Source of the DNA: Microcystis aeruginosa LEGE 91341
GTDB taxonomy: Bacteria; Cyanobacteriota; Cyanobacteriia; Cyanobacteriales; Microcystaceae
Direction: 5' to 3'
NCBI RefSeq assembly: GCF_015206885.1
Contig: NZ_JADEXY010000023.1
Span: forward strand, 1 to 37,386
Length of the DNA: 37,386 nucleotides
Both the position numbers and the translations under genes were made by a program. How positions within the stretch are numbered: the stretch's first letter is position 1; each line of letters opens with the position of its first letter. The notes beneath the pieces were generated by a model that worked only from the letters and a program-made list of their open reading frames with translations, made no database searches and was not told the DNA's origin. Below, piece after piece: positions 20,845 through 35,932 of the stretch.

Positions 20845-23800
20845 TTAGGCTTGAATAACAATGTCATTCTCATTTAGCTGTGGGATGCCATTAAGAGTGG
20901 CAAAAAGTGCGCCATTGCCTAAGCCATTGCTGGCACCATTTTGGTTGTAGAATAGATTACCCGTTGCTAAATTGTAAACGATTTTAGCACTACTGGAACC
21001 AACTAAGGCTAGTTCGTTAGCAGCATCGTTAATAGTGGCAAATTCAGCGGCTTGTAAGTTGTTAGCGACGCTACTGACAAGAGCATTGAAAGAGGTTTTA
21101 CTCAGGATAATTTTGTCACTTCCTTTAATAAAGTCGCTGATACTATCAACGCCAAAACCACTGGTATTAAAGACAGGACCACTGCCAAAGGGGACAGGGT
21201 CACTGGCCTCGCTGTGTGGGGGAATTATCGGACCGGCAATTCTACCCGCACCACTGCCAAAGAAGAAAGAGTCGCTGCCATCGCCGCCAACAAGAAGATC
21301 ATTTCCAACACCACCAAGCAGGGTGTCGTTACCTGCGCCACCAAGGAGAGTGTCATGGCCATCTAATCCCTTGAGTAGGTTATTACCGCTGTTACCAGTG
21401 ATGACATTATCTAGATTGTTACCTGTCCCGTTGGTGTTGTCATTGCCTACCAAGGTGAGGTCTTCGATGTTGACGGTGAGAGTGTGATTTACAGAAGACT
21501 GGACGGTATCTTTGCCTTCTCCAGCACTTTCGATGATCACATCACGGCTGTTGTCAAGGATATAGGTGTCGTCACCAGTACCTCCCACTAGGCGATCAGT
21601 TCCTAAACCCCCGTTAAGTACATCGTTACCTTCGCCGCCGTTCAGGGTGTCGTTACCTTCGCCGCCGTTCAGGTTATCGTTGCCCAGACCACCGTTCAGT
21701 TCGTTATTACCCGCATTACCAAAAATGTCATTAACCCCATCGTTACCTGTGCCTTTTAGATTAGCCGTACCTTGCAGAGTTAGGTTTTCGAGGTAGGTGC
21801 CGACCAAGCTATAGTCAAGAGTGCTGTAAACAGTGTCGGTTCCTTGGCCATCTAATTCGATAATCGTGTCATCTAGATTATCTAGATAGTAGGAGTCGTT
21901 ACCGAGACCGCCAATCATAATATCGGCTCCGGTTCCACCGTTTAAGACATCATCTTGTGGCCCACCAATGAGGAGATTACTAACACTATCACCTGTGAGA
22001 TTGGCTTTGCCGGTGATGCCACTGGCATCAATATTCTCGAAGTTTTTGACGACGATGCCTGTAAAGTCCGTATTGGTGAATTGATTGGTGCTAGATGCGA
22101 GGTTAAAGGTAAATGTTTGGTTGGCGTTTCCATCTTTTAAGACAAAAATGTCGTTTCCTCCCGCACCATCAAAATTATCGTTATTTTGTAGGTTGGCAAC
22201 GCTGACATCGAAGATGTCAAAATCGCTGGTTCCTACTAAGTTATCGAGGTTAGGGGTAGCGGTGAAGGTGACTGGTAAATCGTTAACGGTGATGGTGAAT
22301 TTTTGGCTAAAGCTGGCTCCTGCTGCATCGGTGGTTTGTACCCGTACACTGTAGCTATTTTTAACCGCAAAGTCGAAGATGGCGTTACTGCGGAGTTCAC
22401 CGTTGACTAGGGTGAATGAGCCATTATCGTTATCTCCCTCGCCGGACACTAGGCTATAGATGAAAGTGTCGTTTAAGTCTGCATCGGTACTGCTAAAACT
22501 GCCGATTACTGTACCAATTGGTTGATTTTCGTCAATGAAGGCGGTGGGTTGATTGTCGATAATGAAGGCGTTTGTTAAGGCTAAAGCGGTGGGGGTGTCG
22601 TTAACTCCATTAATAGTGAGGTTTACGGTAGCAATGTCAGTAGAAGTGCCACTGGTGAGGCTATAGCTAAAGGTTTCGGTTTGGCTTTCCCCTACTTTCA
22701 GGGAGTCGAATTGTTGGTTGGGGTTATAGGTAAATGTGCCATCAGCATTAACTGTCAGTATGGCCCCGGATTCTAGGGTAAGAGCTTGACCGACATTTGT
22801 GGTTAGGCCATTAACGGCGGTGAGGGTTAAACTTCCTCCCCCAATACTGCTGTCATTGGTCAGAAGATTGCCCGTTTTGGTAGTGTCTTCGTCGGTGCTG
22901 AAGCTATCGCCTACGGCTACGGCTAAGACGTTAATCACGGCGGCGGCTACTTTGTTTTCTAGGTTAGTGCCGGTGTTGTTGGTGACAACGGTAGAAAAGG
23001 GGACTGTGCCTTGGAGCGCATCAACGTAATCTTCGGTCAGGGTAGTCTGGGCGACGGTTTGGGCTTTGAAAATATCGGTGGCGCTGGTGGCGTTGAGGAT
23101 GGTGTTGTTGAAGCCGCCGGCAATTAGTTGGGCGGAAGCGGGAATGGCGTTGACTAAGGGTTGGAATTGGGTGGTAATGCCAGGATTGGCGGTGGTCAAA
23201 ATACCGGCTGTTCCGGTTAACAGGTTACTGACTTGGGTTGTGTTGCCGAGGTCGAGGGAGCCGTTTTTGATGGCATTGACTAGGGTTGTATTAAAGGCAT
23301 CGTTCCAAGCGTCGGGGGTTAGGCTGGGAATTAGGGTGGTAACGGTGCTGGCGACTTCCCGCATACCGTTGATTAGGGTTTGGACGGCAACCTGAGCAGA
23401 GAGGATTTTGAGGCCGTCGGTGGAACCACTTTGGGCGGCTTCTACGGGGTCAAAGGTGGTCAGGTTAACGCCACTGGGCAGGCCGAGGGCGGTTTTGAGT
23501 TGGGTTTGAGCTTCTTCGGAGGTGAGTCCGGTTTTGGTTAATTCGGTGATTAAGCTGGTTAAGGGGGTGATGACGGTGGAGCCTGTGGTGGCTTTGAGGG
23601 TTCCCGTGAAGGTTTGCCCGGTAATTGCGTCGGTTCCGCCTACGAGGACGTACTGCCCTTCGGAGGGGTCAATCTCGCCGTTGCCGTTGGTGTCAAATTC
23701 GTTGCTGATGGTTAGGTCGTAATTACCGGTGGAGTCGGTGGTGGTGAAGGGTTCATCGGGGTCTTGAATGCCGTTGAGGTTAGCATCAAAGAAGACGGTG

Positions 23801-26800
23801 GCTCCTGAAATAGGGCCATCTAAGCCCTTACCGGCGGCGGTTTGCGCTGTATTGCCATAAATGGCATCGGTATTAAGGTTGGAGCCAATGACAGTTTGAT
23901 CTTTAGTGGCTGAACTGGAAGCGGTGTTGCCAGTAAAGATGGTTGTAGAGCCGATGTTGACCGTCGCGGGGGTAGATGGCATCCCCTGATTATTGATTTT
24001 ATTTTGGGTATCAATGGCTGATTGAGTCATGGCAAAAATTGCGCCGCCATAGCCCGATGCCCCACTAGGAGCGTTGGCTGTGTTATTGGTGAACTGGGAA
24101 TTATTGGTAATGATGACAGTCCCCGTGCGGATAAAGATGGCTCCGCCCATGCCTGCGCCACCGACTCCGCCCTTGGCACCAAATCCGTCGAGGCCGCCCC
24201 TGCCGCCCTTGCCGCTGCCGCCCCAGATGCGGCCGATGCCGCCGTCGCCGCCGCTGCCGCCGCTGCCGCCGAAGCCGCCGAAGCCGCCGCTGCCGCCGTC
24301 GCCGCCGCTGCCGCCGATGCCGCCGCTGCCGCCGTCGCCGCCGCTGCCGCCGCTGCCGCCGCTGCCGCCGCTGCCGCCGCTGCCGCCGATGCCGCCGATG
24401 CCGCCGATGCCGCCGAAGCCGCCGAAGCCGCCGTCGCCGCCGTTGCCGCCGTCGCCGCCGTCAACACCCAAGAGTCCAAGACCAGAATAATCGCTACTAT
24501 TACCTCCCCCGATCGCCTGATTTCCTTCAAACGTCACTTTATCTAAGGTGACATTGCCATCATAAATAAATAAAGCGCCGCCCATACCCGCAGCTCCCCT
24601 GCCGCCTTGAGCAACGCCGCCCTTGAGAGTTAGATTTTTGAAGGTGACATCCACGATGCCATTGCTTCCTTTATCGGTAAAAATGGCGGGATCATAGTCC
24701 TGATATTTTTCAATTCCCCCATAGACAAAGAAAATCGGACGATCTGCCGTATCCACTTGACCATTGTTATTATTATCGCCACTGATGGTGAATCCTTGTC
24801 CATCAATGATCATGTCGCTGTTAATCAGGGTTTTCATGCGAATAACATCACTACCAAAGTTAAGACGCACGTTCGTTGTCAGCTTGATGGTATCTAAGCC
24901 CGCCGTATTATTAGCCTGTTTAATCGCCCAACTCAAACTGCCTACGGTATTTCCTAAACCGTTATCTGTGGCCTGGGTGACTTCAAAAAGATTGGCTGGT
25001 TCATTAACATCGGTAACGGTAATGGCTACCGCTTTAGTCGCTGTCAAACTGCCGTCACTAACATTAACAACAATATCATAAACATTATTGCCGCCATTAT
25101 CGCTGGGAGCCTCAAAATTAGGAGCAGTTTTAAAGGTAACTAAGCCAGTATTACTAATATTAAATAAACCCGCATCTGTTCCCGTTAAACTGTAGGTTAA
25201 GGTAGCATTTTCGGGATCACTGGCAACCGTTGTATAAACTGTGCCTGTGCTATTTTCAGCAAAACTGACAGCACTTCCACTGGTAATAACTGGAATTTCA
25301 TTTACATTGGTAACGGTAATGGCTACCGCTTTAGTCGCTGTCAAACTTCCGTCACTGACATTAACGATAATGTCATAAATATTATTGCCGCCATTATCGC
25401 TGGGATCAAAATTAGGAGCAGTTTTAAAAGTAACTAAGCCAGTATTACTAATATTAAATAAACCCGCATCTGTTCCCGTTAAACTGTAGGTTAAGGTAGC
25501 ATTTTCGGGATCACTGGCAATAGTGGTATAAACTGTGCCTGTGCCATTTTCAGCAAAATTGACAGCATTTCCACTGGTAATAACTGGAATTTCATTTACA
25601 TTGGTAACGGTAATGGCTACCGCTTTAGTCGCTGTCAAACTTCCGTCACTAACATTAACAACAATATCATAAACATTATTGCCGCCATTATCGCTGGGAG
25701 CCTCAAAATTAGGAGCAGTTTTAAAGGTAACTAAGCCAGTATTACTACCAATATTAAATAAACTCGCATCTGTTCCCGTTAAACTGTAGGTTAAGGTAGC
25801 ATTTTCGGGATCACTGGCAACCGTTGTGTAAACCGTGCCTGTGCCATTTTCAGCAAAATTGACAGCATTTCCACTGGTAATAGTCGGCGGCTGGTTAGGG
25901 GGATTGGCGGTTTGAAAATTCCAAGTAGTATTATTACCAATACCCGCATAATTATTGGTAGCTAAATCCTGAATTGCACCGCTATCAATTTGAACATAAT
26001 AAGCCGTGCTGTAGGCTAAATCATTGACAGGATTAATAGTCAATTGACTGCCACTAATCGTGATATTACTCGACGTAACCGCCAGGGTTTCCACTACCGA
26101 ATTATCTGAAACCTTGCGAATAACAATATTGCCCGTCCCCTTCTGGATTGCTTCATTAAAATTAATCACGAGATTTGCCCCAATGGCCACGCCTGTCGCC
26201 TCATCATTGGGATTCAAACTGTTAATTGTAGGGGGAGTGCTATCGAGGGTGACACCAGCGGCTCCAAAAAAGGCTAATTTCCCCGTTGTGCTGGTTTTAT
26301 TAATGCTGACACTCTGCAAAATCTTGGCACTATTGGGCGTAAACCTCAATCCAAACAGTTTGATGTCATTGGTAATGCCTGCCGATGAACCGAGAGCCGA
26401 CGCATTGGGGGTACTGACGTTTAGGGTTTGGGATAAATAATATCGGTCTTGGGATTCGGTGATATTTCCTCCGATGTACCAGTCAGGAACCGTACCGGTA
26501 GCGGTAGAATTGGTGCCATCACTGTAATTAAACGTGACGGTAATATTACTCGCTCCGCCGCCCGATGTGGCAAAAAGATGAAGGGCAGAATAGGCTTGGT
26601 TGGTGACATTAAACGTGACAAAGGTTCCTGTCGCTGTTGCTAAGATGCCGTTGTTGCCATTGTTGGCATTGTCGTAGAGAAGGTCAAAAGCCGGATGGTA
26701 AGTATTAGCCGCAAATACGCCATTATCGGGTAAACCTTGACTGCTGTTTCCGCCCTTGTCCACCGCAAAAGATTGGGTCATTAAGCTGTAGTTAGCGTCA

Positions 26801-26883
26801 ATGGCTGTTTGGCTGGTGTCACTACCATTAACGATGAGGTCGCTGGTGAAGAGGGAGGTTAGGTCAAAGTTAATGGTGGCCAT
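20845..26883 (-). CDS. Giant RTX adhesin with cadherin-like and Gly-rich regions
   Basis: A 2012-aa protein probably exported by type I secretion and held at or released from the cell surface. Order (approximate residues): N-terminal beta-rich domain (1-213); SbsA/Big_5-type Ig domain (214-325, TPPTINSLNPNDEATGV); three near-identical cadherin-like repeats (331-624, NFAENGTGTVY.. DPENATLTYSLTGTD); a beta-helix-like region (640-800); a (Gly-Gly-X)n tract (806-904); a SdrD-B-like segment with two EF-hand-like loops (DANLNGIQDPDE, DTNGNGEIDPSE; 1021-1068); a helical stretch (1095-1310); a VCBS-like domain (1318-1428); another cadherin-like domain (1428-1543); RTX nonapeptides such as GGEGNDTLN (1648-1874); and a C-terminal secretion region. 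There is no Sec signal peptide, as expected for RTX proteins. Ca2+ is the likely ligand. No type I transporter genes are adjacent. ATG 26881-26883 is preceded by GAGGA. Confidence 0.88.
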   Translation of the reverse strand: MATINFDLTSLFTSDLIVNGSDTSQTAIDANYSLMTQSFAVDKGGNSSQGLPDNGVFAANTYHPAFDLLYDNANNGNNGILATATGTFVTFNVTNQAYSALHLFATSGGGASNITVTFNYSDGTNSTATGTVPDWYIGGNITESQDRYYLSQTLNVSTPNASALGSSAGITNDIKLFGLRFTPNSAKILQSVSINKTSTTGKLAFFGAAGVTLDSTPPTINSLNPNDEATGVAIGANLVINFNEAIQKGTGNIVIRKVSDNSVVETLAVTSSNITISGSQLTINPVNDLAYSTAYYVQIDSGAIQDLATNNYAGIGNNTTWNFQTANPPNQPPTITSGNAVNFAENGTGTVYTTVASDPENATLTYSLTGTDASLFNIGSNTGLVTFKTAPNFEAPSDNGGNNVYDIVVNVSDGSLTATKAVAITVTNVNEIPVITSGNAVNFAENGTGTVYTTIASDPENATLTYSLTGTDAGLFNISNTGLVTFKTAPNFDPSDNGGNNIYDIIVNVSDGSLTATKAVAITVTNVNEIPVITSGSAVSFAENSTGTVYTTVASDPENATLTYSLTGTDAGLFNISNTGLVTFKTAPNFEAPSDNGGNNVYDIVVNVSDGSLTATKAVAITVTDVNEPANLFEVTQATDNGLGNTVGSLSWAIKQANNTAGLDTIKLTTNVRLNFGSDVIRMKTLINSDMIIDGQGFTISGDNNNNGQVDTADRPIFFVYGGIEKYQDYDPAIFTDKGSNGIVDVTFKNLTLKGGVAQGGRGAAGMGGALFIYDGNVTLDKVTFEGNQAIGGGNSSDYSGLGLLGVDGGDGGNGGDGGFGGFGGIGGIGGIGGSGGSGGSGGSGGSGGDGGSGGIGGSGGDGGSGGFGGFGGSGGSGGDGGIGRIWGGSGKGGRGGLDGFGAKGGVGGAGMGGAIFIRTGTVIITNNSQFTNNTANAPSGASGYGGAIFAMTQSAIDTQNKINNQGMPSTPATVNIGSTTIFTGNTASSSATKDQTVIGSNLNTDAIYGNTAQTAAGKGLDGPISGATVFFDANLNGIQDPDEPFTTTDSTGNYDLTISNEFDTNGNGEIDPSEGQYVLVGGTDAITGQTFTGTLKATTGSTVITPLTSLITELTKTGLTSEEAQTQLKTALGLPSGVNLTTFDPVEAAQSGSTDGLKILSAQVAVQTLINGMREVASTVTTLIPSLTPDAWNDAFNTTLVNAIKNGSLDLGNTTQVSNLLTGTAGILTTANPGITTQFQPLVNAIPASAQLIAGGFNNTILNATSATDIFKAQTVAQTTLTEDYVDALQGTVPFSTVVTNNTGTNLENKVAAAVINVLAVAVGDSFSTDEDTTKTGNLLTNDSSIGGGSLTLTAVNGLTTNVGQALTLESGAILTVNADGTFTYNPNQQFDSLKVGESQTETFSYSLTSGTSTDIATVNLTINGVNDTPTALALTNAFIIDNQPTAFIDENQPIGTVIGSFSSTDADLNDTFIYSLVSGEGDNDNGSFTLVNGELRSNAIFDFAVKNSYSVRVQTTDAAGASFSQKFTITVNDLPVTFTATPNLDNLVGTSDFDIFDVSVANLQNNDNFDGAGGNDIFVLKDGNANQTFTFNLASSTNQFTNTDFTGIVVKNFENIDASGITGKANLTGDSVSNLLIGGPQDDVLNGGTGADIMIGGLGNDSYYLDNLDDTIIELDGQGTDTVYSTLDYSLVGTYLENLTLQGTANLKGTGNDGVNDIFGNAGNNELNGGLGNDNLNGGEGNDTLNGGEGNDVLNGGLGTDRLVGGTGDDTYILDNSRDVIIESAGEGKDTVQSSVNHTLTVNIEDLTLVGNDNTNGTGNNLDNVITGNSGNNLLKGLDGHDTLLGGAGNDTLLGGVGNDLLVGGDGSDSFFFGSGAGRIAGPIIPPHSEASDPVPFGSGPVFNTSGFGVDSISDFIKGSDKIILSKTSFNALVSSVANNLQAAEFATINDAANELALVGSSSAKIVYNLATGNLFYNQNGASNGLGNGALFATLNGIPQLNENDIVIQA
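24170..24466 (-). repeat. GC-rich trinucleotide-based tandem tract coding (Gly-Gly-X)n
   Basis: About 300 bp made almost entirely of gccgcc plus a variable triplet, encoding GGS, GGD, GGF and GGI units in the RTX protein. The base composition is far more GC-rich than the surrounding gene. Frames on both strands stay open through it because of the triplet pattern. Confidence 0.9.
25011..25900 (-). repeat. Three tandem cadherin-type repeats of about 294-297 bp
   Basis: The motif atggctaccgctttagtcgc begins at 25022, 25319 and 25613, giving periods of 297 and 294 bp. The copies are nearly identical at the DNA level; the middle one is one codon shorter (NFDPSDNGG against NFEAPSDNGG) and the first copy in protein order has an extra residue (NIGSNTG). 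This suggests recent duplication or ongoing gene conversion. Confidence 0.85.
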
Positions 26884-28002: not shown

Positions 28003-28055
28003 AGAAAACAGGTTTCTCAAAGAAACCCGTTTTCTAATTAAGAAACCCGTTTTCT
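28003..28055. terminator. Triple palindromic repeat acting as likely bidirectional terminator
   Basis: Arms at 28003-28017 (agaaaacaggtttct), 28021-28035 and 28041-28055 (both agaaacccgttttct). The first two form a 15-bp hairpin with one mismatch and a 3-base loop, 7 bases after the toxin stop codon. The third arm overlaps the TAG stop codon (28054-28056) of the minus-strand oxygenase gene. Confidence 0.65.
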
Positions 28056-29478
28056 AAATAGCGCCTTTTTCTGATTTTTCTTGCCAAGTACCATGAAAAC
28101 TGGGAGGGATAACACTGGGTAATTGCAGACAGCAAAGGGGTTCTTTTTCTAACTGCTGACTGTCATAGATTCTCACTTGGCTGCTGTGATTATTGCCGTC
28201 GTAAACCACGACGATTAACCATCCCGTTTCTGGAGATAAACCATCGCAGACAAAAATCGGTTCACTTCCATAACAGTTATTTTCCAGATAAGCAATAGTT
28301 AACTTACCCGTGGAGTGATTATAACAAGCGGGAAGTCCGATAATTTCCCGACGAATATCGCTATCAGGACGATGGACAGCTAAAAAAGTATTTTGCCATT
28401 TTTGTCCCACCAGTTGCGGGGAAACCACGGGAAAATCACAGCTTAAATCTGAGAGAATTTCCTGATTAATCACTTTTGCTGATAGGGGATTAATAGTAAT
28501 ACTTGCTAATTTTCCGATGGCTAAGGTTTCGGTTTTACCCGTGGGAACTTCTTTTAAAAATTGATTAGTTTTAAAGTCATCATAACGGACAAAAACAATT
28601 TCAAGATTGCCTTGCTCATTCACATAACCATTAGCGAAGTGCCATTGAAACCATGAATCGGTAACACTTTCACTGACTAATTCCAGAGAATTTCGCTCAA
28701 AAATTAGTATTCTTGTTCCTAATTCTGGCTGCCACTGCATAGCATCACTAAAAGTTTTAAATCCCAACAGTATCGATAATTTATCCGCTTTTATCGGTGG
28801 AACGAAAAAGACGAGATACTGTCCTGCTAAAACAAAGTCATGCAGCAGAGACAATCTATCTAACTCAAAAGTGTTTTTCTGGATAATGTCACCAGTGGAG
28901 TCAGACTTATAGAGATTTAAACTAACTTTAGCACCGATTGTCACCCCGAAATTAAAAATCTCTCCTCTGGACAAATCTAGCTTAGGATGAGCGGAAAAAG
29001 TTTCCTTTGCTTGTAAGCTAGATAAATTATCTAAACCTAGGGTTTCTAAAGATTGTAAATCTAATTTATGGGGAAAACCTCCTTCCCAGAGAGCTAATAA
29101 TTTATCGGGTAAAGCTAACAGTGAGGTATTAGCGGCATTTTTTACCTCTTTTCCCCAATTATTCCAAAAAAAGCCGGGGACATTCATGCCATAATTAGGA
29201 AATAAATATTGATTAGCGGCGCTTTCTTGCTGATAACCAGCAGTCTGAACATAACGATAGGTGGCACTGGCTCCATTATCATGAAAATGTACAGCTAAAA
29301 TTGCACCATCTCCGTCAAACCAATGACCAACTTTTTGCTTACCTCTTTCTAATCTTCCCGGACCATTGCGATAGAGACTCCCCCGCAATCCATAGGGAAT
29401 TTTCCCCGATAATAGGGTTAATTGGGTTTCAGAAAATTCCCCTGCTGGTTTTTCTAGAGATTTTGCCCAAGCTTTCAT
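28054..29478 (-). CDS. Carotenoid/apocarotenoid cleavage oxygenase
   Basis: A 474-aa enzyme of the RPE65/CCD family, non-heme iron dioxygenases that cleave carotenoids or apocarotenoids into aldehydes. The four iron-binding histidines are visible: H164 in SAHPKLD, H213 in LLHDF, H280 in WFQWHFANG and H462 in SFHGTW. YRNGPGR and HWFDGDGA near the N-terminus are family blocks. Size and motifs fit the Synechocystis ACO (Diox1) type, which makes retinal from apocarotenals, but substrate choice cannot be told. ATG 29476-29478. The last codons overlap a palindromic repeat. Confidence 0.93.
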   Translation of the reverse strand: MKAWAKSLEKPAGEFSETQLTLLSGKIPYGLRGSLYRNGPGRLERGKQKVGHWFDGDGAILAVHFHDNGASATYRYVQTAGYQQESAANQYLFPNYGMNVPGFFWNNWGKEVKNAANTSLLALPDKLLALWEGGFPHKLDLQSLETLGLDNLSSLQAKETFSAHPKLDLSRGEIFNFGVTIGAKVSLNLYKSDSTGDIIQKNTFELDRLSLLHDFVLAGQYLVFFVPPIKADKLSILLGFKTFSDAMQWQPELGTRILIFERNSLELVSESVTDSWFQWHFANGYVNEQGNLEIVFVRYDDFKTNQFLKEVPTGKTETLAIGKLASITINPLSAKVINQEILSDLSCDFPVVSPQLVGQKWQNTFLAVHRPDSDIRREIIGLPACYNHSTGKLTIAYLENNCYGSEPIFVCDGLSPETGWLIVVVYDGNNHSSQVRIYDSQQLEKEPLCCLQLPSVIPPSFHGTWQEKSEKGAI

Positions 29479-29594: not shown

Positions 29595-30287
29595 TTATAA
29601 AGTATCGGGATCAATTCCCAGAGAACGTATATATTCAGCTAAACGTTCAGCTTTAAGACGCTCTTGTTCTAATTGTAAACTCGCTTGTTCAGCTTTAAGA
29701 CGCTCTTGTTCTAACCTTTGAGATAACTCGATAGAACTTAAAAACTTCTGACCATCTAAACCATAAATTTCTAACCCATCTTCTCTCAAATCAAATCGGA
29801 TATTTAACCGAGGACTAACCCATCCCTTAATCTCAGGTATAGAACTTAATAGTCCTTCCTGTCTCAACCATCCTTGAAAATTATAAGAATCGGGATCATA
29901 AAGATAGTATTCTTCTACTCCATAACGTTGATAAAACAGTAGTTTTCGCTCCATTTCTTCTAAGCTATTAGAAGGGGAGAGAATTTCAAAAACCACTTGA
30001 GGAGCAATATTATCTTCTTGCCATTGTTTATAGGAACCCCTTCTTCCTTTCGGACGACCAAATACTACCATAACATCGGGAGCAACCGGTCCAGTAATTT
30101 TCTTATCTTGCACGGGATACCAGAGCAGATCCCCGGCAATAAAAACGTTAGGAGAAGTGGCAAAAAGAATCTCAAGATTTTCTTTGATTTTAACGATCCA
30201 TTCGTATTGTTCGGTATTATCGGCCATGGGTTTACCGTCACTGTCGGGGTATTCAATATCTGGATCAATAGCTGGTGTAAAGGTCAT
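29595..30287 (-). CDS. Uma2 (DUF820) family protein, downstream paralogue
   Basis: A 230-aa Uma2 protein with a predicted PD-(D/E)XK nuclease-like fold: the acidic residue in PVAPDVMVVFG, the glutamate in VVFEILSPSN and the following MERKLLFYQRYGVEEYYLYDP block. The family is very expanded in cyanobacteria; a restriction-like nuclease role is proposed but not proven. It is a tandem duplicate of the gene at 30309-30938, with nearly identical sequence to residue 190, but carries 20 extra residues in the C-terminal coiled coil (LEQERLKAE repeated at 14-residue spacing). A good AAGGAG lies 9-10 bases before the ATG. Both copies end LAEYIRSLGIDPDTL. Confidence 0.85.
   Translation of the reverse strand: MTFTPAIDPDIEYPDSDGKPMADNTEQYEWIVKIKENLEILFATSPNVFIAGDLLWYPVQDKKITGPVAPDVMVVFGRPKGRRGSYKQWQEDNIAPQVVFEILSPSNSLEEMERKLLFYQRYGVEEYYLYDPDSYNFQGWLRQEGLLSSIPEIKGWVSPRLNIRFDLREDGLEIYGLDGQKFLSSIELSQRLEQERLKAEQASLQLEQERLKAERLAEYIRSLGIDPDTL
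29645..29714 (-). repeat. 28-bp direct repeat coding the coiled-coil duplication
   Basis: The 28 bases starting gttcagctttaagacgctc at 29645 recur at 29687, exactly 42 bp apart (14 residues, two heptads). The paralogous gene lacks this region, so unequal recombination here explains the length difference. Confidence 0.85.
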
Positions 30288-30308: not shown

Positions 30309-30938
30309 TCATAAGGTATCGGGATCAATTCCTAGAGAACGGATATATTCAGCTAAACGTTTAGCTTTTTGAGATAACTCAAGAGAAGTTAAAAATTTCT
30401 GACCATCTAAACTATAAATTTCTAACCCATCTTCTCTCAAATCAAATCGGATATTTAACCGAGGACTAACCCATCCCTTAATCTCAGGTATAGAACTTAA
30501 TAGTCCTTCCCGTCTCAACCATCCTTGAAAATTATAAGAATCGGGATCATAAAGATAGTATTCTTCTACTCCATAACGTTGATAAAACAGGAGTTTTCGC
30601 TCCATTTCTTCTAAGCTATTAGAAGGGGAGAGAATTTCAAAAACCACTTGAGGAGCAATATTATCTTCTTCCCATTGTTTATAGGAACCCCTTCTTCCTT
30701 TCGGACGACCAAATACTACCATAACATCGGGAGCAACCGGTCCAGTAATTTTCTTATCTTGCACGGGATACCAGAGCAGATCCCCGGCAATAAAAACGTT
30801 AGGAGAGTTAGCAAAGAGAATCTCAAGATTTTCTTTAATTTTCACGATCCATTCGTATTGTTCGGTATTATCGGCCATGGGTTTACCGTCACTATCGGGG
30901 TATTCAATATCTGGATCAATAGCTGGTGTAAAGGTCAT
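30309..30938 (-). CDS. Uma2 (DUF820) family protein, upstream paralogue
   Basis: A 210-aa Uma2 protein starting MTFTPAIDPDIEYP at ATG 30936-30938. An open frame extends further upstream to 31025, but that extra segment has no match in the paralogue, so the shorter start is chosen. It differs from the downstream copy at only a few positions (NSPNVF/TSPNVF, WEEDN/WQEDN, LRREG/LRQEG, YSLDG/YGLDG) and lacks the repeated coiled coil. Key acidic residues are kept. The ribosome site here is weaker (AGAGCAG in place of AGGAGCAG). 21 bases separate the two genes, which are probably co-transcribed. Confidence 0.83.
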   Translation of the reverse strand: MTFTPAIDPDIEYPDSDGKPMADNTEQYEWIVKIKENLEILFANSPNVFIAGDLLWYPVQDKKITGPVAPDVMVVFGRPKGRRGSYKQWEEDNIAPQVVFEILSPSNSLEEMERKLLFYQRYGVEEYYLYDPDSYNFQGWLRREGLLSSIPEIKGWVSPRLNIRFDLREDGLEIYSLDGQKFLTSLELSQKAKRLAEYIRSLGIDPDTL

Positions 30939-31168
30939 AATTTCTGCTCTGAGGTTATTTGTCTGAAAATTAAATTCTAGCAGCGACGTTATCTTTCCCC
31001 TGTAGTCCCAAAATAACATCGTCAATAAGGTTGATCAAAATGTTTGTGTACTTTTGTTAAAAAGAAAAAGTTTTTTTGACAAAAAGAACAACTTGTGCTA
31101 GTGAATAAATCTCTAACTTGGCAAAAATTCCCCAGACTAGAAGCTGATCGAGGATAGCGATCGAGAGT

Positions 31169-31174
31169 TATAAT
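31169..31174 (+). promoter_or_regulatory. Possible -10 box for the DUF29-SNF2 genes
   Basis: A perfect TATAAT lies 43 bases before the DUF29 start. The region 17 bases further upstream lacks a good TTGACA, so this may be an activator-dependent promoter, or chance. Confidence 0.35.
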
Positions 31175-31217
31175 CGAGCCATTACCCCGCGCTCCCAGTC
31201 GGGATGAGAAATCTATA

Positions 31218-31685
31218 ATGACCGCTCTCTACGAGGAAGATTTTGTTCTCTGGACGGAAAAAACCGCCGAACTGTTAAAGCGAAAAGAGTTTGACCTGGT
31301 GGACTGGGAAAACCTGATCGAGGAAGTAGAGTGCATGGGAAAAAGCGAGAGACAGGCAATAACGAGTTTATTAACCGTTTTAATTGAACACTTGCTAAAA
31401 CTATCCTATTGGGAATCGGAAAAAAAACGGAATGCCCGTCACTGGATAGTGGAGATCGCCGCTTTCCGATCGCAATTAGAACAAAAAATAGATAGTGCCA
31501 CCCTCGTCAACCATGCCTGCGATTCTTGGGAAAAAGCCTATTTAACCGCCAGAAAATCCCTGATTAACGCCAGAATCGTCGATAAAAATGCGATTCCCCT
31601 AGAGTCTATATTCACTCTCCAACAGGTATTAGACGGGGATTGGTTCCCGATCGATATCGAACCTTTTTTGGAAACCCGTCCATAA
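31218..31685 (+). CDS. DUF29 domain protein
   Basis: A 155-aa helical protein with the DUF29 signature: LYEEDFVLWTEKTAELLKRKEFDLVDWENLIEEVECMGKSERQ at 4-46, then LLTVLIEHLLKLSYW and a C-terminal WFP segment. DUF29 proteins are numerous in cyanobacteria and have no proven function; they often sit among mobile or defence-type genes. No catalytic motif can be named. The SNF2-type gene starts 54 bases after its stop in the same direction, so the two may form one transcript. Confidence 0.85.
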   Translation: MTALYEEDFVLWTEKTAELLKRKEFDLVDWENLIEEVECMGKSERQAITSLLTVLIEHLLKLSYWESEKKRNARHWIVEIAAFRSQLEQKIDSATLVNHACDSWEKAYLTARKSLINARIVDKNAIPLESIFTLQQVLDGDWFPIDIEPFLETRP

Positions 31686-31739
31686 ATTGCCGCCATATCC
31701 CCGCGAAAAGATTAGGATTATCCGCGAATATAACCGAAT

Positions 31740-33992
31740 ATGCAAGATATAGAGCAAATCCGCCGCCAACTCATCGAACGCTACCAAAAATTATCGACAC
31801 TAGATCAGGTGATCGTCCGTTTTTTTTTCCTAATCTATGAACCGATCGCCCGCAGCACTTTTCTAGACTGTTTAAATCAAGCTCATTACCGCGACGAGAA
31901 CAACCGGCGACTTAACGGCCAAACCCTGAAATCCCATTTAGATCTCCTCCTAGAAGCGGAAGTGATCACCCAAGACAAAGGCTACGGGCCGCGCTGTCAT
32001 CCCCTCCTCGTCGAGATTGCCAGCCGTGATAGCATTAGCAAGGGAGAATTCAAGCGTTTTGCCGAGATTATCAAGGCAAAACTGCCGCAGCCCCGAACTC
32101 GTTGGGATGAAAGCCTAGTTTTTCAGGGAAAAGATCAATTAATCCGAGAAATCCGTCTGGCCATCTATAGTCAGGATTTCGACTCGATCGAACAACAAAT
32201 CGCCGATTATCAGAAAACCAGCTATTCTTCCTCAAAAACCAGCCTAGAAGACCTTCTGGTTCTCATCTACGATAACCCCTTCGATGGGGATTGGTTACGG
32301 ACGCAACCGACCAAATTTCAAGCCCTAGCACTAAATAGCATTCTTGTCAAGGCTTTTGAAAAAATAACTCGCGCCGATGGGGCTTTTTCCCTCCTAGAAG
32401 AACTCTGTCAAGACCAGACCAGTGTTTCCGAAGCCCATTTGTGGCTCGAACAGGCAATCATCCGAGGACAAAGCGATAAAGTGCGTCGGTATCTCGATCG
32501 CCCCTTCCCGGAAAGCCAAGCAGCAGAAATCGGGGCGATACGGGGTTGGATTGCCTTTCTAGGGGGGGAAAACAGCAAAGCGATCCAAGAATATACCCTC
32601 GCCCTTAAAGCCCTAAAAAAAGCCAAAGGAAAACAAAAAATCTATTTTTCTTCGATTAGCGGCTTCTCCTTTATTTTCGCCCTCCTCAAAGAAGGAACCC
32701 CCGAACGTCTCGCCGAGGCCGCCAGCTATACCAGTTGGGTGACGCGTCAAAACGATCATCCTTTCAGTCCTATCTATGCCCGTCTGGAAAAAATCATCGC
32801 TGCCCGTCAGGGAGATATGCAGGCCAAAGACGCAATCATCGACGCGACGATCAATCCCTACCAAATGGGCCAGGGTCTAGAGACTCTTATCTGTAGTATC
32901 TGTCTCTACTGGATGAGTAGCGGCATCGCTAAAAAACATCTGCCCCGCCTACTCTTGCCCCTCTACAAAGATGCCAAGGCGGCCGGCTACCATTGGTTAG
33001 CCCTAGAAACCGGGGCCCTACTGTCCCGACTCGATCGAGCGCCGGAAACGGAGATGGTTATAAAATGGCATCTCCCTTCCCCCCTGGTGGATGCGATCGA
33101 ACCCCAAGAAGCTTGGCAACTGTGCCTGAATGCCTTGACTAATCTGTGCGCGCCAACACCAACCCCAGGTAAATCTAACCCCGTCGTCCGCCTTGCTTGG
33201 TTTCTCACTATCCATTCCGAGGATTATTTCCTGCAACCAAAAGAACAGAAACTCGACGCGCGGGGTAATTGGAGTCGTGGCCGTCCTGTTTCCCTTAAAC
33301 GTCTGCGAAAAACTGGAGAAATTGACTATTTAACCCCGCAAGACCTGAAAATTTGCGCCCATATCTTCGTGGAATCCAGTTACTATGGCCAGAACGAGTA
33401 TCACTTTGAGCGCCGGGCTATTATCGAACTGATCGGTCATCCCCTGGTGTTTTGGGAAGATTCCCCCAGAACGCGGGTAGAAATCGTCGCTGGGGAACCG
33501 GAATTGCGAGTAAGAAAGGACAAATCGGGTAAATTAATCCTGTCTTTACTGCCCGATCTCAGCGATCGCCAAGAAGTGCTGATTTGGAAAGATACCCCCA
33601 CTCGCATTAAGGTAATCGAAGTCAAGCCGGAACACCGAAGCATCGCCGACATTATCGGCAAAAGCAACCGCCTAGAAGTCCCCGACAAGGACCGGGAAAA
33701 AGTCCTGGCTGCGATCAATTCCCTGTCCGGGATCGTGACAGTACATTCCGATATCGGCGGAGGAAAAGCAGCCCGGTCAGTGGCAGCCGATAGTCAACCC
33801 CGGATTCATCTCTTACCGGCCGGAGAGGGTTTAAAAGTGGCGGTTCTCAGCCGTCCTTTTGGGGCAGCCGGTCCCTATTTCCAGCCCGGAAAAGGGGGAG
33901 AAACAGTAATCGCCGAGATCGAGGGGGAACGGCTGGAAACCACTAGGGATCTGGCCCTAGAGAAAAAACTAGCCCAAACGAGAAAAAACTAG
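31740..33992 (+). CDS. N-terminal half of a frameshifted SNF2-family protein
   Basis: 750 aa ending at a premature TAG (33990-33992). It begins MQDIEQIRRQLIERYQKLS and is mostly alpha-helical to residue about 480, with a tetratricopeptide-like look. A conserved block follows (GRPVSLKRLRKTGEIDYLTPQDLKI, then YHFERRAIIELIGHPLVFWED) that I associate with the regions preceding the ATPase core in bacterial SNF2-like proteins. It contains no helicase motifs. The last five residues (QTRKN after EKKLA) result from an exact 20-bp tandem duplication; removing one copy joins this frame to the ATPase half to give one 1390-aa protein. As it stands the product lacks the motor, unless a -1 shift at A AAA AAC (33983-33989) occurs. 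Confidence 0.8.
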   Translation: MQDIEQIRRQLIERYQKLSTLDQVIVRFFFLIYEPIARSTFLDCLNQAHYRDENNRRLNGQTLKSHLDLLLEAEVITQDKGYGPRCHPLLVEIASRDSISKGEFKRFAEIIKAKLPQPRTRWDESLVFQGKDQLIREIRLAIYSQDFDSIEQQIADYQKTSYSSSKTSLEDLLVLIYDNPFDGDWLRTQPTKFQALALNSILVKAFEKITRADGAFSLLEELCQDQTSVSEAHLWLEQAIIRGQSDKVRRYLDRPFPESQAAEIGAIRGWIAFLGGENSKAIQEYTLALKALKKAKGKQKIYFSSISGFSFIFALLKEGTPERLAEAASYTSWVTRQNDHPFSPIYARLEKIIAARQGDMQAKDAIIDATINPYQMGQGLETLICSICLYWMSSGIAKKHLPRLLLPLYKDAKAAGYHWLALETGALLSRLDRAPETEMVIKWHLPSPLVDAIEPQEAWQLCLNALTNLCAPTPTPGKSNPVVRLAWFLTIHSEDYFLQPKEQKLDARGNWSRGRPVSLKRLRKTGEIDYLTPQDLKICAHIFVESSYYGQNEYHFERRAIIELIGHPLVFWEDSPRTRVEIVAGEPELRVRKDKSGKLILSLLPDLSDRQEVLIWKDTPTRIKVIEVKPEHRSIADIIGKSNRLEVPDKDREKVLAAINSLSGIVTVHSDIGGGKAARSVAADSQPRIHLLPAGEGLKVAVLSRPFGAAGPYFQPGKGGETVIAEIEGERLETTRDLALEKKLAQTRKN

Positions 33993-33999
33993 CCCAAAC
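33960..33999. repeat. Exact 20-bp tandem duplication that breaks the SNF2 gene
   Basis: The unit gagaaaaaactagcccaaac occurs at 33960-33979 and again at 33980-33999 without a mismatch. Twenty bases shift the frame by -1 equivalent, so the upstream frame (codons at positions divisible by 3) meets TAG at 33990, while the downstream frame continues to 35932. Confidence 0.95.
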
Positions 34000-34096
34000 A
34001 GCGATCGATTCTTGTCCGATCCTGATCAGTTTTGAGGAAGAAAATGGGGAATGGCGGCTAGAAAATCCAGAGGATTGTCTAGATCTACTGCTGGAA

Positions 34097-35932
34097 TTGC
34101 GGGAATTAAACGATAGCGTCCTTGTGGAATGGCCAGAAGGGGAAAAATGGCGGGTGTCGCGTCAGCTTCGATTACAAGACCTACACCTAAATATCCACAG
34201 TCAACGGGATTGGTCTGCCGTCAGTGGTGAACTGCACCTAGAGGAGAAATCGGTGCTGAGTATGCAGGAGTTGATGAAATTGCTAGAGGGAGCGCCGGGG
34301 CGGTTTATTCCCCTCGGAGATGGTCAATTTCTGGCATTAACCGAGGCATTTCGGGAACGGTTACAGGAAATGCGTGCTTTCTCGGAAAAGTCCGGCGACG
34401 GTTTGCGGTTTCATCCCTTCGCTGCCCCGATTCTCTCGGAACTCACCGAGGAAGTGGGACAACTCAAGGCCGATAAACGTTGGCGCGATAATTTACAACG
34501 CTTTCAGGAGAGTCAGGATTTTACCCCGGAAGTCCCCTCAACTCTACAGGCAGAATTGCGCGACTATCAATTGGAAGGCTTTCGCTGGTTAGCTAGGCTG
34601 GCCCAGTGGGGGGCCGGGGCCTGTTTGGCCGATGATATGGGATTAGGGAAAACTTTACAGGCCCTGGCAGTGATCCTTACCCGCGCCTCGGAGGGACCGA
34701 CTTTAGCGATCGCTCCTACTTCAGTATGTTTGAACTGGATTAGTGAGGCGGAAAGGTTCGCACCCACCTTAAATATCATCCAATTGGGAACAGGCGATCG
34801 GCAAGCACTACTCGATCGACTGCAACCTTTCGATCTGTTGGTCTGTAGCTATGGGTTATTACAGCAGGAAGAAGTGGCTACCATGTTGGCCGGGGTAGAA
34901 TGGCGGACAATCGTTCTCGATGAGGCCCAAGCGATTAAGAATTTCTCCACCAAGCGATCGAAAGCAGCGATGAATCTGCGGGGGGATTTTAAACTAATCA
35001 CCACGGGAACACCGATCGAGAATCATTTAGGGGAATTATGGAATCTTTTCCGTTTTATTAACCCCGGATTGTTGGGATCCTTGGAAAGTTTTGATCGCCG
35101 TTTCGCCACCCCGATCGAAAAATACGGCGATAAAACCGCTCGCGAACAGTTAAAAAAACTGGTGCGGCCTTTCCTTCTCCGGCGCACAAAAAACCAAGTT
35201 CTGGCGGAATTACCGCCGCGTACCGAGATTTTAGTCCCGATCGAGTTAAGCGTCGAGGAGAAGGCGTTTTACGAGGCCTTACGGCGGCGTGCTTTGGAGA
35301 AATTAAGCGAGAGTGACAGTACCGCCGGAGCGAAACATCTCCAGGTACTGGCAGAGATCATGAAATTACGCCGGGCCTGCTGTCACCCGCAGCTAGTGGC
35401 TCCAGATTTGGATTTAGCCGGCTCGAAATTGTCCCGTTTCGGGGAAATTCTGGATGATTTATTGGATAATCAGCATAAAGCGTTGGTATTTAGTCAATTT
35501 GTCGATCATTTAGGGATTATCCGCAGTTATCTCGATCAAAGACAGATAAAATATCAATACCTCGATGGTAGTACCCCTGCTGGCGATCGGCAGAAACAGG
35601 TGAAAGCGTTTCAAGCGGGGGAAGGGGACGTATTTTTAATTAGTTTAAAAGCTGGGGGGACAGGATTAAATCTCACCGCAGCCGATTATGTTATCCATCT
35701 TGATCCCTGGTGGAATCCCGCAGTGGAGGATCAGGCTTCCGATCGCGCTCACCGCATCGGCCAAAAACGTCCGGTGACGATTTATCGCTTAGTGGCCAAG
35801 GATACGATCGAGGAAAAAATTGTCGATCTGCACCACCATAAACGCGATCTCGCCGATAGTTTATTGGAGGGAACCGACGCAAGCGGCAAGCTATCTACCG
35901 ACGAATTATTACGCTTAATGGCCGAGGGATAA
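34097..35932 (+). CDS. C-terminal half of the frameshifted SNF2 ATPase (motor domains)
   Basis: 611 aa from a possible TTG start, but the frame is open further upstream through the duplication and this is really the second half of one gene. It holds the complete SNF2/RapA-type motor: Walker A DDMGLGKT, motif Ia APTSVCLNW, Walker B DEAQAIKN, TGTPIENHLGELWNLFRFINPGLLG, then the C-terminal lobe with VFSQFVDHLG, YLDGSTPAGDRQ, SLKAGGTGLNLT and QASDRAHRIGQKRPV. With one duplicate copy removed, the Walker A lysine would be K964 and DEAQ 1054-1057. Such ATPases move along double-stranded DNA and remodel protein-DNA complexes; the bacterial role may be transcription recycling, repair or defence. It is convergent with the C-DES gene, 18 bases apart. 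Confidence 0.85.
   Translation: MRELNDSVLVEWPEGEKWRVSRQLRLQDLHLNIHSQRDWSAVSGELHLEEKSVLSMQELMKLLEGAPGRFIPLGDGQFLALTEAFRERLQEMRAFSEKSGDGLRFHPFAAPILSELTEEVGQLKADKRWRDNLQRFQESQDFTPEVPSTLQAELRDYQLEGFRWLARLAQWGAGACLADDMGLGKTLQALAVILTRASEGPTLAIAPTSVCLNWISEAERFAPTLNIIQLGTGDRQALLDRLQPFDLLVCSYGLLQQEEVATMLAGVEWRTIVLDEAQAIKNFSTKRSKAAMNLRGDFKLITTGTPIENHLGELWNLFRFINPGLLGSLESFDRRFATPIEKYGDKTAREQLKKLVRPFLLRRTKNQVLAELPPRTEILVPIELSVEEKAFYEALRRRALEKLSESDSTAGAKHLQVLAEIMKLRRACCHPQLVAPDLDLAGSKLSRFGEILDDLLDNQHKALVFSQFVDHLGIIRSYLDQRQIKYQYLDGSTPAGDRQKQVKAFQAGEGDVFLISLKAGGTGLNLTAADYVIHLDPWWNPAVEDQASDRAHRIGQKRPVTIYRLVAKDTIEEKIVDLHHHKRDLADSLLEGTDASGKLSTDELLRLMAEG

Follow-up and report, generated by a model that had tools for sequence, protein, structure and literature searches.

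Does a gene that carries a frame-breaking duplication, with a slippery heptamer set exactly before the new stop codon, represent a gene on its way out, a reversible switch, or a product that is rescued by frameshifting? The question is raised by a SNF2 gene in a Microcystis contig (the window, 37,386 bp, which is one entire contig of a draft assembly of 280 contigs). An earlier note, made from the sequence, had left these readings side by side. We consider it very likely that this is an ordinary and young loss of function by tandem duplication and that the affected SNF2 gene is an accessory one, repeatedly lost within the genus.

The duplication and its reading frames

The note had described two perfect 20-bp copies in a row, and the TRF program indeed reported a tandem pair at 33960-33999 (period 20, 2.0 copies, 100% match). 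Chance does not account for a perfect 20+20 tandem. In the 4.49-Mb assembly, the only two occurrences of the exact 20-mer are the members of this pair, which rules out a mobile or dispersed 20-bp element. There are no matching bases at the edges of the unit (the A before it versus its last base, C, and its first base, G, versus the following A), leaving no sign at its borders of a duplication via edge-matching bases.

The two reading frames are also as previously described, with the upstream ORF ending at the premature TAG and the ATPase half in another frame (Table 1). The upstream ORF (31740-33992), which aligns with the N half of the homologues, finishes with AGA AAA AAC TAG, so that its final RKN residues are the second 20-bp copy read in a new register. 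The frame of the ATPase motifs is open from 33947, upstream of the repeat, to the TAA at 35930-35932. Position 33983 is the third codon position of the upstream ORF and therefore A AAA AAC stands in the -1 register; a -1 shift at the heptamer reads AAA AAA CTA GCC CAA ACA GCG (KKLAQTA). Both the register and the outcome of the shift had been correctly recognized.

Table 1. Features of the interrupted SNF2 gene and its upstream neighbor (window coordinates).
Feature	Position	Strand	Remarks
DUF29 gene	31218..31685	+	54 bp before the SNF2 ORF
Upstream ORF	31740..33992	+	N-terminal half of the SNF2 protein, 750 aa
First 20-bp copy	33960..33979	+	TRF and exact 20-mer search
Second 20-bp copy, identical	33980..33999	+	single copy at the same place in 7 genus relatives
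A AAA AAC heptamer	33983..33989	+	-1 register of the upstream ORF; the unit's Lys-Lys codons in another register
Premature TAG	33990..33992	+	depends on the CTA within the 20-bp unit
Motor half	33998..35932	+	644 codons plus stop, other frame; PF00176, PF00271

The encoded protein

The motor half matched SNF2-rel_dom (PF00176) with 215.8 bits and Helicase_C (PF00271) with 91.5 bits, the cut-offs being 24.9 and 23.5, and an intact relative gave 214.1 and 90.9 bits. Both domains are above the Pfam cut-off and the protein is a member of the SNF2 family of ATPases. A profile of 65 homologues also matched solved SNF2 motors, the best being 1z63, a helicase of the snf2/rad54 family. By analogy with the family, ATP-driven movement on DNA is the likely activity. 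No further Pfam families were found at E<=0.01 in the motor half or in the intact relative, and the N half had no Pfam or NCBIfam match at this threshold, although two PADLOC models of DpdE touched it weakly (E 1.9e-5 and 0.0046).

The motor half was strongly matched by PADLOC models that carry the labels DpdE and ZorD. An identity as a defense-system component (DpdE, ZorD or DrmD) taken from these names is not accepted, because the NCBIfam equivalog cut-offs were missed by far even by an intact relative, L040 (1390 aa). It reached 39.5 of the 500 bits required for DpdE, 239.6 of 1500 for ZorD and 85.3 of 950 for DrmD_b, as well as 460.8 of 1200 for the SCO1167-type helicase, and the window's motor half was likewise under the cut-offs. 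Hence, we claim no defense role. The likeness to bacterial SNF2 ATPases with DpdE- or ZorD-like motors lies in the C-terminal arrangement of SNF2-rel_dom and Helicase_C, whereas L040 stands apart from DpdE, ZorD and the SCO1167-type helicase by these low scores.

The gene in other Microcystis genomes

A DNA search with positions 33400-34600 against 30 genomes matched nine, namely the strain's own, seven others of the genus and G016, from the same family. The genus set consisted of 12 Microcystis genomes, the window's own and 11 others. All seven genus matches span the 1201 query bases with 1181 bases, i.e., 20 fewer, and in the alignment the 20-mer site is single-copy in each of these seven orthologues among the 11 other genomes. 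The comparison with other strains proposed in the earlier note thus gave the one-copy allele in 7/7 genus orthologues and the two-copy allele in 0/7. The gene of G016 (63% match over part of the query) has one open frame across the duplication site.

At the protein level, an orthologue (97-100% identity) was detected in 8 of the 12 genus genomes, the own included, and G002, G004, G008 and G011 contained paralogues only (<=42% identity). In five of the seven orthologues the gene is a single open frame of 1392 codons from stop to stop, in keeping with the full-length scale of about 1390 residues that had been anticipated. The remaining two are broken in different ways. G005 has one extra base at window position 33033, which could be a sequencing error, and G007 has 308 bp in place of window 30983-32896, with the DUF29 gene and the 5' part of the SNF2 gene absent. 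As for the genomes with no orthologue, G002 keeps only 5' pieces up to window position 32530, with the downstream flank 75 bp further on, in G004 and G008 the match begins with the downstream flank and there is no gene, and G011 retains the last 26 bases of the gene. Altogether, the 12 genomes include 5 intact genes, 3 broken ones (that of the window among them), 1 remnant and 3 without the gene. The aminotransferase gene located 3' of the SNF2 gene in the window is found in 12/12 genomes (95-100% identity), on a different contig from the SNF2 gene in G006. Given these repeated and differing breaks and absences, the SNF2 gene is, judging from the genomes compared, accessory in the genus, with several separate instances of damage or loss that took different forms.

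The motor half is still open in G005 and G007 (968 and 1009 stop-to-stop codons), and in G007 its dN/dS is low (0.07-0.08 versus three relatives). A shorter motor-bearing protein might be useful in these strains. The upstream DUF29 gene is a possible operon partner of the SNF2 ORF.

Homologues beyond the genus

For a wider set we kept the best 80 of 591 candidate loci from genome_contigs (2 from Microcystis and 78 from other bacteria). Both halves are in one ORF at 79 of these best 80, which rules out a natural two-gene arrangement. The 80th locus, L113, has one open frame across the duplication site and its break comes later, in the motor half. In L058 and L086 the first part of the N half is in another frame, away from the duplication site, and at L053, L072 and L081 the ORF is truncated where the locus begins. 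By their record titles, the best 80 of 591 loci show a widespread long form, with cyanobacteria, proteobacteria, desulfobacteria, planctomycetes, Bacteroidetes and others represented. Residues 324-361 of the modelled fragment, a block that includes the duplication site, have 0 indels among 65 homologues. The site itself (351-357) lies inside a predicted helix (348-360; block pLDDT 87 and 91) in a structure model with an overall pLDDT of 82.8 and a pTM of 0.61.

These data bear on the idea of two separate working proteins, the second one made by translation restarting downstream of the TAG. The motor half is clean and its frame does offer start codons (TTG at 34097, GTG at 34124, ATG at 34262 and others), but the first of them is 105 nt past the stop, the halves share one ORF in nearly all the homologues mentioned and the cut would pass through the predicted helix. 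We give this idea practically no credence.

Origin of the slippery heptamer

The codon on which the premature stop depends differs among the relatives, and both copies of the window carry CTA, where six of the seven have CTG and G007 has CTA. Since both copies and G007 share it, the CTA state most simply would have preceded the duplication. The difference is silent in the old frame; in the new frame CTA gives TAG right after the heptamer. In all seven genus orthologues A AAA AAC is already there in another register, and the heptamer of the window looks like a by-product, i.e., codons GAG AAA AAA CTA that the gene already had, seen in a different register. A stretch of Lys-Lys, one silent difference and the 2 mod 3 length of the duplication would then account for heptamer and stop. 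A caution arises from this, namely that a textbook slippery heptamer found in register before a stop can be generated incidentally when a Lys-Lys stretch is duplicated.

A proposed rescue by frameshifting

The alternative is that the arrangement works. Some full-length protein with seven extra residues would be made, either through a -1 shift of the ribosome on A AAA AAC or through RNA polymerase slippage on its six A. The site does have the X XXY YYZ pattern in the zero-frame register, immediately before the stop, and a -1 shift leads into the motor frame. IS1 naturally uses A6C as its shift motif, with about 2% reported from a plasmid system (available part of PMC12428005), and the accessible portion of PMC4066793 cites an A_AAA_AAC cluster among IS elements as a proven case for which no stimulator is established and reports that 39/64 heptamers shift more than twofold over background without one. 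The same sources contain arguments on the opposite side. Efficient heptamers in E. coli have a last codon that is all-purine or all-pyrimidine, and AAC is not the ZZN of this kind needed for high shifting (PMC4066793, in the part available), and A6C alone is described as effectively very low in E. coli (PMC12428005, likewise in part). We found no literature figure for A6C shifting in cyanobacteria. The insA-insB' site of IS1 is alike in having the same heptamer, in the -1 register, before a zero-frame stop, but there, as far as the available text of PMC12428005 goes, it serves the element's own regulation, while the arrangement of the window occurs in 0/7 orthologues and has no above-chance structure downstream.

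The 91 nt from the stop fold at chance level (z +1.36), with 187/200 shuffles folding at least as well in a pseudoknot-free search for a stimulatory structure, and the 181 nt around the site gave a z of -0.61. The heptamer is out of the slippery register in 7/7 genus orthologues, none of which has the heptamer-plus-stop arrangement. Moreover, the seven added residues would be placed in the predicted helix where no indel is seen among 65 homologues.

In 68.6 kb of the longest little-overlapping ORFs (>=150 codons) from the window and the loci of four relatives, in which some genes are repeated, A AAA AAC appears 6, 8 and 4 times in registers 0, 1 and 2. The four cases in the slippery register are the 33983 site, one in the motor half at 35188 and two others. 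When the window and eleven loci were counted with redundancy, the figures were 30, 20 and 7. The slippery register is thus the rarest (4/18; 7/57 in the redundant count), as if slippage mattered, although the numbers are small. In the window and the same kind of redundant set of eleven loci (L132-L142), A AAA AAG is distributed as 29, 11 and 1, so that the rarity is most pronounced for this heptamer, as if the efficient bacterial shifter were avoided.

Bacteria do use A6C as a genuine shift motif, and a low level of shifting here, of one per cent or below, is possible. As a rescue of the gene, the frameshifting proposed in the earlier note has no support apart from the bare heptamer, set against the other register in the orthologues and a stop that depends on CTG versus CTA, to which shuffle-level folding, the weakness of A6C and three other A AAA AAC in the same register can be added. 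We regard it as highly improbable.

A possible artefact or reversible switch

An assembly or sequencing artefact, with a real locus that is single-copy, should be considered in a draft of 280 contigs, the more so with one copy in 7/7 genus orthologues. Nevertheless, outside the duplication the gene matches that of the relatives and has no private indel, and a usual read is longer than the 40-bp tandem. Assemblers tend to collapse short tandem repeats rather than to create them. All in all, we find an artefact quite unlikely.

An unlikely explanation too, if slightly less so, is a phase-variable switch in which the two-copy state is OFF and the loss of one copy, by slippage or recombination, turns the gene ON. 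The locus has the appearance expected of it, an exact out-of-frame tandem duplication in an otherwise intact ORF with no second lesion, and there is a precedent in the duplications of pneumococcal capsule genes (Waite 2001 and 2003, cited through the available part of PMC4022640). In the type 3 capsule locus, cap8E and tts, as described there, a tandem duplication inside the ORF similarly stops the product. The same text leads one to expect reversion at about 1e-5 or less for duplications of at longest nine bp, and the 20-bp pair might revert at another rate. The duplication of the window, exact and out of frame, differs in affecting a different kind of gene, and in its case reversion or a mixed population is hypothetical. 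Furthermore, there are two copies only and no array, the two-copy allele appears in 0/7 genus orthologues, the unit edges have no matching bases and nothing seen marks the site as duplication-prone, and other strains have lost the gene through deletions. On the switch reading, the number of copies of a 20-bp unit would set a motor ATPase to ON or OFF. The composite version, an ON/OFF switch by the 20-bp duplication in part of the population with A6C leaking some full-length protein in the OFF state, seems to us very unlikely. The titles and abstract openings of the Microcystis papers found on tandem duplication, pseudogenes, frameshifting and SNF2 make no mention of this gene; snf2-family transcripts are mentioned once, in the available text of PMC5647855.

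A probable recent loss of function

The preferred explanation, a young loss of function, would proceed as follows. A 20-bp stretch of an intact SNF2 ATPase gene of about 1390 aa would have been duplicated head to tail in the lineage of this strain. Since 20 is not divisible by 3, translation of the second copy would fall into a wrong register and halt at the TAG at 33990. The product would be a 750-aa N-terminal fragment without motor, the motor half being left without a start codon near the stop, and the gene would be effectively off, a young loss and one among several independent ones in the genus. The single-copy state at 7/7 genus orthologues, the reading frames and the patchy loss are the directly observed part of this explanation; the direction of the change (a gain in this lineage), its youth and the lack of function of the halves are what we infer.

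The window gene was compared codon by codon with those of six relatives, excluding G007, which lacks the 5' part. No further private indel was found and the compared codons contain no stop other than the regular one, so the gene has one inactivating lesion against intact orthologues, the situation expected for a recent pseudogene. Codon changes specific to the window were 10 synonymous and 9 nonsynonymous (6 and 8 in the N half, 4 and 1 in the motor half), versus 115 and 36 summed over the other six relatives (uncorrected Fisher p 0.049, whole gene, and 0.074, N half). This is at most a hint of relaxed constraint on the window gene. The motor half is still clean, which youth explains, and continued use could too. 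The fresh pseudogene put forward in the earlier note therefore agrees with what we see, i.e., one-copy orthologues of which 5/7 are intact, no second lesion of its own and identical copies. It would offer a clean view of an early stage of gene loss, the same gene being repeatedly damaged or lost across the genus.

Other repeats in the window

Several other repeats were seen along the contig. Two tandem Uma2-family genes (PF05685) are located at 29598-30287 and 30312-31025, on the minus strand, and blastn suggests that their copy number differs among the relatives (about three in G005, two in G003 and one in G007). A 2012-aa ORF (20845-26883, minus strand) holds repeats at 25000-25882 and 24193-24460, three of 294 bp (98 codons) at 93% and about thirty of 9 bp. 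The contig end (37163-37386) has a 118-bp unit in 1.9 copies, 99% alike, with the sub-repeats GGGTTTTG and TCAGTTA. Another exact 20-bp unit (TRF, 1.9 copies) is found at 28020-28057, intergenic and amid AGAAACCCGTTTTCTAA-like repeats, in a stretch that varies among the four relatives compared.
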